A DNA stretch of 64,000 nucleotides. It comes from an uncultured Flavobacteriales bacterium (GTDB lineage: Bacteria; Bacteroidota; Bacteroidia; Flavobacteriales_G; Salibacteraceae). The position numbers were made by a program, and so were the translations under genes. Positions 7,224 through 63,950 of this stretch are shown here, in pieces. Numbering within the stretch: position 1 is the stretch's first letter; each line of letters begins with the position of its first letter. The notes beneath the pieces are model-generated. The model ran no database searches. It was not told the origin of the DNA and saw only the letters and a program-made list of their open reading frames with translations. The DNA lies in NCBI GenBank assembly GCA_937899835.1, contig CALCCE010000023.1:1-64000 (forward strand). Reading direction: 5' to 3'.

Positions 7224-8639
7224 ATGAAAGAAGAAAAAGACCCCTCTTTTGAGGAAAACGATAACGCCCTCCTGGTAGAGCGTTACGAGCGCATGATGGC
7301 CAAGGGTGAGCACCACTTCTACGATGTAGAAGAATTCGAGGACATTATGGACCACTACATGGCTTTCGGCAAAATCGCCCAGGCCATGGAAGTGCTGCGG
7401 CTTGCCAAAGCACAACACCCCTTCGATTTCGACCTTATGATGCGGGAAGCCGAGTTGCTTGCCGTTTCCAATAAACCCAAAGAAGCCCTCAGCCTGATCG
7501 AAAAAGTAGAGATGGTAGAGTTCAACAACCCTGACGTGTTGTTGATCAAGGCTTCGATTCTCAGTCAACTGGGCCGTTCCAAAGACACCATCGAGTGCTT
7601 GAAAACGGCCGCCCGAATGACCAAAGAAAACCGGGATACCATTTATCTGAGCCTCTCCTACGAATACCAAAACCTGGAACGCTTCACGGATGCCTTGCGC
7701 TACCTCCATTTGGCCTTGCAAGCCAATCCCGCCAACGAAGACGCCCTCTACGAATTGGCGTTTTGCTACGATCAGTTGGAGCGCATGGAGGAGAGCATTT
7801 TGTTCTATCAGGAATTCATTGACCGTCGGCCCTACTCTCAACATGCCTGGTACAACCTGGGCAATGCTTACAGCCGGTTGGGCCGTTTGGAAGAAGGCAT
7901 TGACGCCTACGACTACGCCATCATCATTCAAGATGATTTTGCGGCCGCTTATTTCAACAAAGCCAACCTGATGGCGCGCCAAAAGCGCTACCAGAAAGCC
8001 ATTGAAGTTTATAAAGAAACCGAGAAGTTTGGTTTTGCCGATGCCCTCACCTTCTACTACATTGGGGAGTGCTTTGAAAAAATGGAACAATGGGACAGTG
8101 CCCTGGCCAACTACCGCAAGGCAGTAGCCAAAGATGAATTTCTCGCCGATGGCTGGTTGGGAATTGGCATTGTACTCGACTACCAAGGCCAACACCGCGA
8201 GTGTTTGTCTTACGTGCAAAAAGCCATTGACCTGGACGCCGACAATGCCGACTATTGGTATGTGCTGGCCGAAGTGCAGGAAAAACTGGAAAACTTTGAA
8301 GCTGCCAAACAGGCTTTTGAAAGGGTCTTGGCCCTGGAATATGCCGATGAAGACGTTTGGCTCGACTATTCTAACCTCTATTTTAAGCAAGGAGTGACAG
8401 AACGGGCGGTGGAAGTGGTGCTGGAAGGCATGGCCCATCACCCCGACAAAAGTGACTTGTATTATCGCCTTACCGCCTATTTGCTGGGGTGGGGACGCGA
8501 AAAGCAAGCCTTAGAAATGTTGCAACTTGCGCTTGAATTCGACCCGGGGAACTACAACGCCCTGTTAGATTACCTGCCCAATGCAAGTAAATTGTCCTCA
8601 GTGGTTGATATGATTCAAAACTACCAACAACCAGAATGA
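7224..8639 (+). CDS. Tetratricopeptide repeat protein
   Basis: The 471-residue product is built almost wholly of TPR units (for example 'WYNLGNAYSRLGRLEEGI', 'AAYFNKANLMARQKRYQKAI') and has no signal peptide, so it is probably a cytoplasmic scaffold. An in-frame upstream ATG at 7134 would add a 30-residue stretch that reads like untranslated DNA; the acidic start MKEEKDPSFEEND at 7224 is preferred. Its stop overlaps the next start (ATGA), and the following four genes are co-directional and tightly packed, so it leads an operon with the ComA-like enzyme. The same TPR / phosphosulfolactate synthase pairing is, from memory, common in Bacteroidota. A near match to the -7 box (TACTTTCG) lies in the 266-base divergent spacer shared with the TonB operon. 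Confidence 0.85.
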   Translation: MKEEKDPSFEENDNALLVERYERMMAKGEHHFYDVEEFEDIMDHYMAFGKIAQAMEVLRLAKAQHPFDFDLMMREAELLAVSNKPKEALSLIEKVEMVEFNNPDVLLIKASILSQLGRSKDTIECLKTAARMTKENRDTIYLSLSYEYQNLERFTDALRYLHLALQANPANEDALYELAFCYDQLERMEESILFYQEFIDRRPYSQHAWYNLGNAYSRLGRLEEGIDAYDYAIIIQDDFAAAYFNKANLMARQKRYQKAIEVYKETEKFGFADALTFYYIGECFEKMEQWDSALANYRKAVAKDEFLADGWLGIGIVLDYQGQHRECLSYVQKAIDLDADNADYWYVLAEVQEKLENFEAAKQAFERVLALEYADEDVWLDYSNLYFKQGVTERAVEVVLEGMAHHPDKSDLYYRLTAYLLGWGREKQALEMLQLALEFDPGNYNALLDYLPNASKLSSVVDMIQNYQQPE

Positions 8640-29267: not shown

Positions 29268-29457
29268 CAACCTTTTTCCATCGGTTCATTGATCATTGCT
29301 TTCGCCTCTTTTCGGGTGCTGAGCGGTTCTTGGCGACACCTACCGTATGTATGCCTTGAGGCAGGTATCGTTCTACTCAGCTTTTCCTTAGAGACGGCAC
29401 CCTTTATTGCGGAAGCCGAAAAGCAAGCAGAGTAGGCAGCTATATTCTTTCATCCTC

Positions 29458-57141: not shown

Positions 57142-59637
57142 TCATCGGATTTCGATGCTTTGAGTGCTCATTTGATGGACAGCACTTTCCCCAGGCGGTT
57201 GCACAATCACTCCTAAGGTATAGCTTCCCGGGGGAAGAAAGCGTTTTTTAATCTCCAACAAGAACCCCGAGGTGTCGTAATTAAAGCCAGTATTAAAGTA
57301 GGCGGTTACGTCTTGGCGCAACATAGAAATGGTTTCGGTCACCAGGTGCCCTTGGTCGCTGCTCCACACCACTTGTACCTCTCTTTCGGTCGCATCCCGG
57401 TCCATAAACATGGCCCAGCCACTGATTTTAATGCGATCGTTCAGGTCCGTCACGGTTTCTAAATTGGCACGCAATCGTCCATCGCCTGCGGGAGGCAACT
57501 GTTCCAACTTGCGCGGTCGAAACTCAGGCACCACCGTCAGTTCTTCCATATCGGGAAACTGATAGAAAATCGTATCTCCGGTAGCTTTACGAATGGCCAT
57601 GCCCAAAGCGTATACCCCTGCCGGTAGGTGGTGGGTATACACATAAGAATCGAAACCTGCCTGATCCAGGTTTTCGGCTTCAAAAAAACCGGTAACGTCT
57701 TTGCGTTCCGTAGATCGAACGGCCGCAAGGTAATTGCCAGTATGGTTGCTGAGGACCGCGAAAGTGGTATCTCCTTGATTGTTGGAGGTGCCGTTGGCAA
57801 AAGCCCAGCCTTGTAGCTGTATCACCCGGTTGGTATATCCAAAGCTTTCTAAATTATAACGAAAGGAGGCACTGTCCGATGCAGGTAAGGTCGCCGGAGC
57901 CCAATTCCCATGTCGGGCCAAAGCGTGGTATACCGAATCTACTTGGTGGGCATTGCTATCGGCCGTCGTATAGCTTACTTCCTGATTTCGAGAATCGTAG
58001 AGGTAATAATATCCATCCAAATAGCCTAAAATCAGTTTGCGGTTGAACAACAGCGGTTCAAAGGGCAACAAGTGCTCTTGGGTGGTAATGAAAAGTTCGT
58101 TAGAGTCCAACACCTCTTTCCCTAATCGCATCTGAAGTGTATCTAAATACTGGCGATTGATGCCCGTAGTTTCGCGCGCAACATAACCCATGGCAATGGG
58201 CTTTTCCTGTTGGAGCATTAGGAAGCAAAGGTCTTGGTAATCGCTCGGGTACAACAAATCGTTTTTATGGGGTGGATAAGTAATCACGCGGTCAAAGGGG
58301 GCTACCAGTTCGGCCCAGGCTTCATCATTTAGTGGAGCTGGCGAATAGGCGCCATATCCCAAATCTTTGCTGAAGAAAAGTTGGGTATCGTAAAACTGAA
58401 CACTACAAATGACTCCCAGGGTAATCAGTTTCGCAACCGTAGGCAGCTTCCAACGGCTGAGACCGATCAAAGCTCCCAACAACAACACATAGTACAACAG
58501 CCAGATAAACCGTCCACTGGCCCGAAAAATGCTCCCCAGTTTTTGTAGCGCCTCGGGGATAGGCACTTCTACCAATAGTCGATCGCCCCAGGTAAGTTGA
58601 TGGGTGATGGCAAAAACAGCATATCCCCCAACCAGCGGCAACAACAACCAGAGCGGTTTTGGTAATCCTTGTTTTTTCAAAATCCAACGGAACGACCAAT
58701 AACTGCACCCCACCAGTAAGAGTAGCATACCACCGAGGCCCAGGTAAGCATATCCTTCGTATTGTAAAGGACTATGGTACGGCAGGTGCTCAAAAAGGAA
58801 GGAATAACCGGCTGAATTGATGAAGGCATTGAGGTTGGTGCTGTACAAGCCATAGCTGTTGGCTACTTCCATGCTCACTTCATTGTTGAAACTGAGCATG
58901 CCCAGCACCATCCATGATAGCACTACACTGCCCATGGAGATGATGACGAAGCCACCCGCTTTCCACCAAGGGAGCAAGCGATCAATAAAGGCGTGGCGCA
59001 GTGGCAAAATGAGGTTGAAGCCTACTACAAACAAAAACAAGTAGGGATTGATAAGGGCCGCAATCACCACCAGCCCAATCTGTTTCCAATTGCATTGCAT
59101 CACACTTGCTTTCGCAACTGGCCGTAAGTAATAGTACAAAGAAGCCAACAGCAACCAATGAGCGGTAGTGGCTGGGTGGATTCCGCGATAGAATAACAAG
59201 GGATTTAATCCAACGAAAATGGCTGCCAAAATGAGGAGTGGCCCTGCTACCCGGTAGTGTTTGAGCAGACGAATGGTGAATGCACCAGTAAGCAAATGAC
59301 TGGTGAGAATATAGGCGCCCAAATACTGAAAAGTACCGGGAAGCAATCCGGAAAACACCTTGAAAAACAGCGCCAACAGCGGGATGGAATCCATATATCC
59401 TACGTTGGTTCCCGCCGGATAATTGATGTCTTCAATGGTGCCCAAGGGAAACTGCCAGGGGGCATCGCGAAAGTAGGCCCATCCCAAATAGTGTTGCCCC
59501 CAGTCGTGGTACACCTCCATGAGCCATTGAATGTTGGTGGGATCAATCACCGCCAGTCCATAACTCCAATGAAAGCCCAGCAAAATTCCCAAAAGGGAAA
59601 TGCCATACACCCACCGGTCTGAAAGGTTGCGCATCAT
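57142..59637 (-). CDS. DUF6311-like GT-C-type membrane protein with two C-terminal beta domains
   Basis: The 831-residue protein has about 12 membrane helices in the first 440 residues. The first loop carries 'DPTNIQWLMEVYHDWGQHYL', 'FRDAPWQFPLGTIEDINYPA' and 'YMDSIPLLALFFKVF', which from memory mark DUF6311 and have the acidic-loop layout of GT-C glycosyltransferases. A soluble part (440-600) is followed by two tandem beta domains of about 105 residues: each has 'GWAF' or 'GWAM', 'R.DVT.FF' or 'R.DVTAYF', a 'GF' turn and 'LP.G.Y.LG'. The start MMRNLSDRWVYG (59637) is chosen. With the GT2 gene downstream it probably attaches sugars to a lipid or surface molecule. Confidence 0.88.
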   Translation of the reverse strand: MMRNLSDRWVYGISLLGILLGFHWSYGLAVIDPTNIQWLMEVYHDWGQHYLGWAYFRDAPWQFPLGTIEDINYPAGTNVGYMDSIPLLALFFKVFSGLLPGTFQYLGAYILTSHLLTGAFTIRLLKHYRVAGPLLILAAIFVGLNPLLFYRGIHPATTAHWLLLASLYYYLRPVAKASVMQCNWKQIGLVVIAALINPYLFLFVVGFNLILPLRHAFIDRLLPWWKAGGFVIISMGSVVLSWMVLGMLSFNNEVSMEVANSYGLYSTNLNAFINSAGYSFLFEHLPYHSPLQYEGYAYLGLGGMLLLLVGCSYWSFRWILKKQGLPKPLWLLLPLVGGYAVFAITHQLTWGDRLLVEVPIPEALQKLGSIFRASGRFIWLLYYVLLLGALIGLSRWKLPTVAKLITLGVICSVQFYDTQLFFSKDLGYGAYSPAPLNDEAWAELVAPFDRVITYPPHKNDLLYPSDYQDLCFLMLQQEKPIAMGYVARETTGINRQYLDTLQMRLGKEVLDSNELFITTQEHLLPFEPLLFNRKLILGYLDGYYYLYDSRNQEVSYTTADSNAHQVDSVYHALARHGNWAPATLPASDSASFRYNLESFGYTNRVIQLQGWAFANGTSNNQGDTTFAVLSNHTGNYLAAVRSTERKDVTGFFEAENLDQAGFDSYVYTHHLPAGVYALGMAIRKATGDTIFYQFPDMEELTVVPEFRPRKLEQLPPAGDGRLRANLETVTDLNDRIKISGWAMFMDRDATEREVQVVWSSDQGHLVTETISMLRQDVTAYFNTGFNYDTSGFLLEIKKRFLPPGSYTLGVIVQPPGESAVHQMSTQSIEIR

Positions 59638-59750: not shown

Positions 59751-59984
59751 AACATCTTAACTGTTAAAAAAGAGAGGACAATCAGCCGCGATCTACTGAT
59801 TCTTGGTGCGCTTCTATGCCTTGGTATGAATTATAGTCGGTAGGTCCTGTTGAACAAATCCCTGTCGAGGAAAGACAAAATTATAATTGCCAAGGCCTGT
59901 TGTAAAAGTTTTACAATTAGGACTTTACGTAAGAGCAACCTTAAAAGATGAAAGAAGCTTTCACAACATGGAACGATTATAGAC

Positions 59985-60190
59985 AAAAAAAGAGGACCCT
60001 AAAGTCCTCTTTTTAAACCCAACTACAATTCGGATATCGCTTCTTTGGCTTACTTCACATTTCTAATCCGAATCAATCAATGCTGCACAATTCGCTTTTG
60101 CTTAAATGGTAAGAACGTAATTAAAAACTCAACTAATCACCTTATTGAAAAGACCTTGCCAAAATTGGGTTTGCTTTTCTTTGTTCATTT
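59985..60190 (-). ncRNA. Small structured RNA candidate, unit 1
   Basis: On the minus strand the unit begins near TTGGCAAGGT, has an 8-base stem (ATTCGGAT / ATCCGAAT, 60028-60035 with 60066-60073) around a 30-base loop, then AGTTGGGT, then a terminator (AAAAAGAGGAC / GTCCTCTTTTT, 59987-60014) with a long T-run. Unit 2 shows the same order of elements with a different stem sequence. The 5' end is not defined. Confidence 0.4.
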
Positions 60191-60219
60191 GGTATCCTTC
60201 ACCTCTATACAATCGCAAC

Positions 60220-60236
60220 TGTCTAAATATTAGACA
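60220..60236. promoter_or_regulatory. Perfect palindrome before RNA unit 1
   Basis: TGTCTAA and TTAGACA are separated by ATA. The site lies about 30-40 bases before the presumed 5' end of RNA unit 1 on the minus strand, a position suited to an operator. Confidence 0.3.
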
Positions 60237-60314
60237 TCAGGATTAAAATGCACACTAACCCAAAATGGAATTTTTTTCCTTCGCGGTTTTGGCTTCTGCC
60301 TTTTGGATTCTTCC

Positions 60315-60346
60315 CATTTTGAAACATTTGATTCATTTTGAAACAT
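60315..60346. repeat. 13-base direct repeat with 19-base period
   Basis: CATTTTGAAACAT occurs at 60315-60327 and 60334-60346, separated by TTGATT. The 19-base period is close to two helical turns, so a pair of protein-binding sites is possible. Confidence 0.4.
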
Positions 60347-60516
60347 CATGTGTTTGCCTGTAAAGGGAAAGGCACATTTAAAAATGGGCGGTTCATGGCT
60401 TCTTTTGTGGGGAGGAATTTGTTTTTCTGGATGACACATAGGCATCTGTTTACCGAAGTAGGCATATATTAAAGTTATCTACTGGGTTTTAAAGTCCTCC
60501 TACTATCAACGGTAGT

Positions 60517-60690
60517 AAAAGAGGGCCGAAGCCCTCTTTTTCACCCAACTTACTGTTCGAGTCATCACAATTCATTTCCACTTAGTCTTTCGAACAGCTC
60601 TCTACAGTTGTTTCCAACATGCATAACTAATTAACCCGCACCACTAATAGGAAATACCTTGCCAACTAAGGAACAAGGATTGATTTTAGA
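60517..60690 (-). ncRNA. Small structured RNA candidate, unit 2
   Basis: On the minus strand: TTGGCAAGGT near 60670, an 8-base stem (CTGTTCGA / TCGAACAG, 60553-60560 with 60590-60597) around a 29-base loop, AGTTGGGT, then a terminator (AAAAGAGGGC / GCCCTCTTTT, 60517-60540, tetraloop CGAA on the plus strand, TTCG on the RNA). Stem sequence differs from unit 1 at several positions but pairing and spacing are kept. A 19-codon open frame inside it is not shared with unit 1. Confidence 0.4.
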
Positions 60691-60815: not shown

Positions 60816-61025
60816 TCAAGGCTCGTTTTCGTCAGAAGTAAATTCCTGATAAGCCTGCTCGCTGGAATCGAACAGTTGCTCTTCTTCCGTAATTCGTTGT
60901 TCCTCTATTTTAGAAATTACCTTGTGGTGGAAGCGTTCCTTGGCCAGGTCGCACCACAAAAGGAGGCTACCCACCACCGCCGAAGAACTGGCAATACAAA
61001 GTAAAACGATTAGAAAGCGCATCAT
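60816..61025 (-). CDS. Small membrane protein of unknown function
   Basis: The 69-residue product has one N-terminal membrane helix ('FLIVLLCIASSSAVVGSLLL') and a charged, Glu-rich tail ('ISKIEEQRITEEEQLF', 'YQEFTSDENEP'). The pattern fits a single-pass membrane protein with a cytoplasmic or periplasmic acidic tail. It lies 58 bases after clpB on the same strand, but the intervening space holds a strong terminator, so co-expression would need read-through. No family recognised. Confidence 0.55.
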   Translation of the reverse strand: MMRFLIVLLCIASSSAVVGSLLLWCDLAKERFHHKVISKIEEQRITEEEQLFDSSEQAYQEFTSDENEP

Positions 61026-61083: not shown

Positions 61084-63708
<2,625 letters not shown>

Positions 63709-63950
63709 GGGTTCCGTGTTTGTGCCGTCTCCGACAGTTCGCACGGCATTTTGCAAAAACCTTTCCCTTCGCTTTTTTCGGAAAAATTGACAGCACCTTC
63801 GAAAATCATCCGACGATTTGACCGGCTATCTTTCTGAAAACTGGCGATTTGACACCTTCGGGGAGGTAGGAAGCACCTTAAGATTGATGAACAACCACTG
63901 AAAGTTCAACGCTCATGGACGGGAAACAGCCTGCTGCTCCAAATCACTGC

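Follow-up and report, generated by a model that had tools for sequence, protein, structure and literature searches.

Two tandem members of a putative four-copy small-RNA gene family in an uncultured Flavobacteriales genome

Results and discussion

Sequence comparison indicates that four units of one bacterial genome, here called A, B, C and D, are a real four-copy family of putative structured small-RNA (sRNA) genes. Two of them, A and B, lie in the window (the whole 64,000-nucleotide stretch of DNA analysed here). We lean towards the reading that the family is lineage-restricted and that its members have their own promoters and act in trans as base-pairing sRNAs. The family is known from one assembly, consisting of 307 contigs.

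Layout and setting of units A and B

Both units are on the minus strand (A at 59987-60162, B at approximately 60515-60665) and share the same order of parts: TTGGCAAGGT, a perfect 8-bp stem, AGTTGGGT and an intrinsic terminator. From the 5' element to the end of the terminator a unit measures about 150-175 nt. An earlier sequence-only reading of the window had described such a pair with shared, ordered elements, and each element it named is indeed found at its place on the minus strand. In unit A the promoter-like 5' element TTGGCAAGGTCTTTTC (60147-60162, including TTGGCAAGGT at 60153-60162) is followed by the stem arms ATTCGGAT (60066-60073) and ATCCGAAT (60028-60035), which enclose a loop of 30 nt. 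Next come the conserved linker AGTTGGGT (60017-60024), a candidate seed or protein site with a weak signal on the target side, and the GAGG-type intrinsic terminator AAAAAGAGGACTTTAGGGTCCTCTTTTT (59987-60014). Unit B has the conserved 5' element TTGGCAAGGTATTTCC (60650-60665, including TTGGCAAGGT at 60656-60665), the arms CTGTTCGA (60590-60597) and TCGAACAG (60553-60560) around a 29-nt loop, the linker AGTTGGGT (60543-60550) and the GAGG-type intrinsic terminator AAAAAGAGGGCTTCGGCCCTCTTTT (60517-60541). The distance between stem and terminator, reported before as 11-13 bases, is 13 nt in A and 11 nt in B.

The GAGG-type terminators that had been pointed out are present in both units, but terminators of the same kind also occur after other genes of this genome. 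Their likeness alone is no evidence of homology, and the similar ones after other genes are ordinary terminators.

Units A and B sit between a 69-aa ORF (60816-61025), itself downstream of clpB (61084-63708), and the gene of a DUF6311 (PF19830) membrane protein (57142-59637), which lies about 350 nt past the terminator of unit A. All of these are on the minus strand. Both units are intergenic and carry an intrinsic terminator of their own, as sibling sRNAs do. Between the 69-aa ORF and unit B no clear minus-strand terminator was seen, so B may be located inside the 3' UTR of the clpB-orf69 transcript.

Some further features surround the units. A basic 71-aa ORF between B and A (60230-60445, minus strand) shows no sign of being a gene. 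In the gap that separates unit A from the DUF6311 gene, at 59898-59968, the inverted repeats TTGTAAAACTTTTACAA and GAAAGCTTCTTTC are possible operator sites for the downstream gene. Upstream of unit A there are an inverted repeat GTCTAA-TAT-TTAGAC (60212-60226) and a direct repeat TGTTTCAAAATG (approximately 60315-60345), both of which are absent from B, C and D.

A second tandem pair in the same genome

A search of the 6.9-Mb genome with the pattern TTGGCAAGGTNTTTNC yields four exact matches. Two are A and B; the others, C and D, form a second tandem pair on contig C158. The rest of the layout is shared by C and D (stem AGAGGTCA/TGACCTCT, a 26-nt loop, linker TTGGGTGAAAA (TTTGGGTGAAAA) and a terminator), and the genome thus contains more than one related putative RNA gene, four copies in all. 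With the two-part pattern TTGGCAAG-N106..136-TTGGGTNNAAA exactly A, B, C and D are retrieved from the genome, against 0 matches for the reversed control. The same pattern gives one match (in one genome) and one control match among 34 other genomes of the bacterial family, and we take the former to be an unrelated chance match.

The bodies of the units are related: the A/B, A/C and B/C alignments outscore all 200 shuffles (a MAFFT alignment of the units splits the stems). Together with C and D, the further copies keeping the 8-base stem that a genome search has brought to light, these alignments bear out the earlier suggestion of a duplicated small-RNA family whose stem changes while its pairing is preserved. 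Alignments of the 200-nt regions upstream of A, B and C, on the other hand, are not clearly above shuffles. The proposal that palindromes and direct repeats between the units serve as shared promoter or operator sites is not sustained by this comparison.

Over a block of 226 nt, which begins 47 nt before the element and extends just beyond the terminator, units C and D show 100% identity. The approximately 350 nt directly upstream of this block, by contrast, contain many differences between the copies. The diverged flank consists of the duplicated tail of a secreted-protein gene (the secretion domain) with its own terminator-like repeat, which stays paired in both copies (CCGGAA...TTCCGG in C, CGGAA...TTCCG in D). 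The duplication spans about 632 bp. At approximately 7670-8530 of the contig the C-terminal domain of the secreted protein is tandemly duplicated along with the sRNA unit; the domain has diverged and the unit is unchanged. Selection and gene conversion can both explain this constancy.

Less strict searches of the same genome added no further members. Copies of the element with a single mismatch are nearly all located within or at the edge of ORFs, and we rejected them. A scan for diverged units over 1.6 Mb returned only A and B, plus candidates with four mismatches that we read as chance; the terminator rule it applied was strict enough to pass over C and D, and units with bulged terminators can escape it.

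Constraint on the stem

The 8-base stems of A and B had been described as different in letters but identical in pairing, and this is exact in both units. Each unit was compared with 1000 dinucleotide shuffles, where a stem was counted if it had at least 8 Watson-Crick base pairs, ended at most 6 nt from TTGGGT and enclosed a loop of 20-40 nt. Such stems appeared in 2 shuffles for A, 2 for B and 3 for C (0.2-0.3%; each p approximately 0.002-0.003). Units A, B and C have three distinct 8-bp stems at the same place, with different letters and with pairing kept on both arms; since the letters are unrelated across the three units, the shuffle results are near-independent events. The stem thus seems to be under constraint, and the folded shape of the putative RNA seems to matter.

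Promoter or RNA: the nature of the 5' element

Because the bodies align and the upstream regions do not, the 5' element either is itself the promoter or forms the 5' end of the transcript. Predicted folding of unit B gives a stem probability of about 0 when the element is included (a penalty of approximately 10 kcal/mol) and of 0.96-0.99 for starts at least 20 nt downstream. For A and C the stem is predicted to cost just 1-2 kcal/mol with starts at 0 or +27, and it is not the dominant fold for most start sites. As the stem of B is predicted to fold only when transcription starts some 20 nt or more downstream, a role as promoter is more likely for the element than one within the folded RNA. A scan for canonical Bacteroidota promoters (TTTG/TAnnTTTG) found nothing consistent at the units.

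The Qrr and GlmY/GlmZ sRNAs are driven by sigma-54. By analogy, the element of the present family may be a true sigma-54 (RpoN) promoter at which an enhancer-binding activator switches the siblings on; the sRNA family itself would be the same. We regard this as possible but doubtful. The element matches the sigma-54 consensus at 9 of 11 positions with exact GG-to-C spacing, and the -24 TTGGCA with the GG-N10 spacing is present in all four copies. RpoN was found in the genome itself and in all 40 relatives searched, a sigma-54-type site TTGGCAAGTCCTTTGA lies upstream of another gene of the same genome, and a sigma-54 start would fall at about +26, a start site from which the predicted fold of B includes the stem. 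However, the -12 G (TTG) is missing in all four units, which have TTTC or TTCC instead. In the upstream regions of this genome TTGG-N8-TTG is over-represented (60 against approximately 40 at other spacings), but TTGG-N8-TTT is not enriched and TTGG-N8-TTC only slightly (47 against approximately 35). Most of the clpB promoters inspected in relatives likewise carry TTGG-N8-TTG, with the TTG at the -12 place. Possible as it is on these motifs, the sigma-54 assignment fails one defining feature, the -12 G.

The upstream region of clpB in the window contains a sigma-54-like GG-N10-GC site, AGGGAAAGGTTTTTGCA, at approximately 63752-63768 on the minus strand. A recent survey (PMC12316311) reports that sigma-54 controls heat-shock and Clp-type genes in Bacteroidota, in the light of which the clpB neighbourhood of the units is suggestive only.

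The element could instead belong to the RNA, with the whole block transcribed from about 50 nt upstream as an RNA of approximately 200-230 nt and with TTGGCAAGGT as a 5' seed in the manner of OmrA/OmrB. The identity between C and D begins 47 nt before the element, and the element is the best-conserved stretch, as such a reading would have it. We nevertheless think it unlikely: if the RNA includes the element, predicted folding disfavours the stem of B by approximately 10 kcal/mol, the surroundings of start codons show no excess of sequences complementary to the element, and no shared promoter is seen further upstream.

A coding function for the element is very improbable. Small-protein genes or type I toxin-like tandem units, with the element coding for a portion of a short peptide, might be suggested by a 19-aa ATG ORF after a purine-rich stretch in A and by a 40-aa ORF in C/D whose ATG opens the identical block. 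Yet B has no ATG start, the peptides are dissimilar, and the short ORFs overlapping the element differ in length and use different frames in A, B and C, which makes a peptide product unlikely. The notion that the units are not RNA genes but mobile or repetitive DNA is scarcely credible in spite of the tandem copies and the 632-bp duplication, given that there are just four copies, that no terminal repeats or transposase were recognised, and that every unit has a terminator and keeps its stem despite different letters.

Distribution of the family

BLASTN searches of A, B and C against 59 relatives produced short chance matches only, and those inspected are in ORFs or terminators. As no homolog was seen beyond the genome itself, the case for conservation rests on the paralogs. 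The DUF6311 protein and the 69-aa ORF are likewise without a match among these 59 relatives (the latter has no family match either), which indicates that the collection contains no close neighbour of this genome. A strict pattern scan of GTDB r220 (84,980 genomes), which diverged homologs with changed elements could escape, gave four matches that were judged to be chance in coding-like sequence; the sole Bacteroidota match falls inside an 814-aa ORF. The pattern scan of IMG/VR gave 0 matches. Apparently, then, the family is lineage-restricted.

In the region of the units no Rfam 15 family reaches its gathering score, and up to an E-value of 5 there are chance matches only. The sole Rfam match in the window is a DUF805b RNA (RF02914) at 29406-29438 on the plus strand (40.1 bits, cut-off 35.6). 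This site is located downstream of a large hybrid two-component regulator and just upstream of the ATG (approximately 29461) of a putative secreted protein.

Proposed mode of action

For the favoured reading, that of trans-acting sRNAs with their own promoters, we infer transcription, start site, promoter identity, mode of action and targets as follows. Each gene would most likely be a separate transcription unit, with transcription from the promoter-like TTGGCAAGGTNTTTNC starting some 20-30 nt past the first base of this element. The resulting RNA of approximately 120-150 nt would consist of a variable 5' part, the 8-bp stem with its 26-30-nt loop, a single-stranded TTGGGT linker and the terminator hairpin. 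It would act in trans by base pairing of the invariant UUGGGU, with or without an RRM-type protein, and the siblings would share some targets.

The UUGGGU between stem and terminator is, in all copies, the invariant putative single-stranded stretch downstream of the putative start. Its complement ACCCAA occurs 22 times in the 40 nt before start codons against 11.6 expected (rank 93 of 4096, uncorrected for multiple testing), and complements of the 5' element show no over-representation before start codons. The seed signal of UUGGGU is weak, and we treat it as a lead, not a result. One RRM_1 protein is encoded in the genome, and RRM proteins are known as partners of sRNAs in Bacteroides (PMC11697453).

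Comparison with known sRNAs

The units are best read, from their layout and sequence, as a new family within a known kind, the sibling or paralogous sRNAs. The FopS family of Bacteroides thetaiotaomicron (PMC11697453), which is defined by its R1' sequence, resembles them by description in being multicopy, mostly intergenic, found in Bacteroidota and composed of paralogs that partly share sequence; the occurrence of RRM-1 proteins in the lineage is a further point in common. However, FopS RNAs are approximately 65-70 nt long, with 14 copies, a Bacteroidaceae-wide distribution and canonical promoters (PMC11697453). OmrA/OmrB (PMC4211561) are likewise intergenic siblings in tandem, alike at their 5' and 3' ends and divergent in the middle, but they are shorter (82-88 nt) and conserved across enterobacteria. 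The present units differ from them also in forming two tandem pairs and in a middle that keeps an 8-bp stem through changes on both sides. Qrr and GlmY/GlmZ are listed among the sibling sRNAs as well (PMC4211561), and the units share with them a compact -24-like element preceding the genes, though the -12 G is lacking and no activator site was identified.

6S RNA, including 6S-Flavo (RF01685), is also structured and approximately 150-200 nt long, and duplicated 6S copies are known. We rejected it as a candidate: the 6S covariance models (RF00013/RF01685) give no match in the region up to an E-value of 5, and the CTGTCC...GGCCT features of weak 6S-like matches in other families are absent from the units.

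Significance

To our knowledge, sRNA regulation in Bacteroidota has been little mapped beyond the gut genera. The family described here would show that tandem duplication yields sibling sRNAs in this lineage too. A stem changed on both arms within one genome offers a ready covariation test, and the four natural variants are useful for target finding. With little confidence, we can go one step further and picture a tandem sibling sRNA family that is driven by a degenerate sigma-54-type promoter and has one pair beside the heat-shock gene clpB. If true, this would tie RNA regulation to the activator-dependent sigma factor in Bacteroidota.
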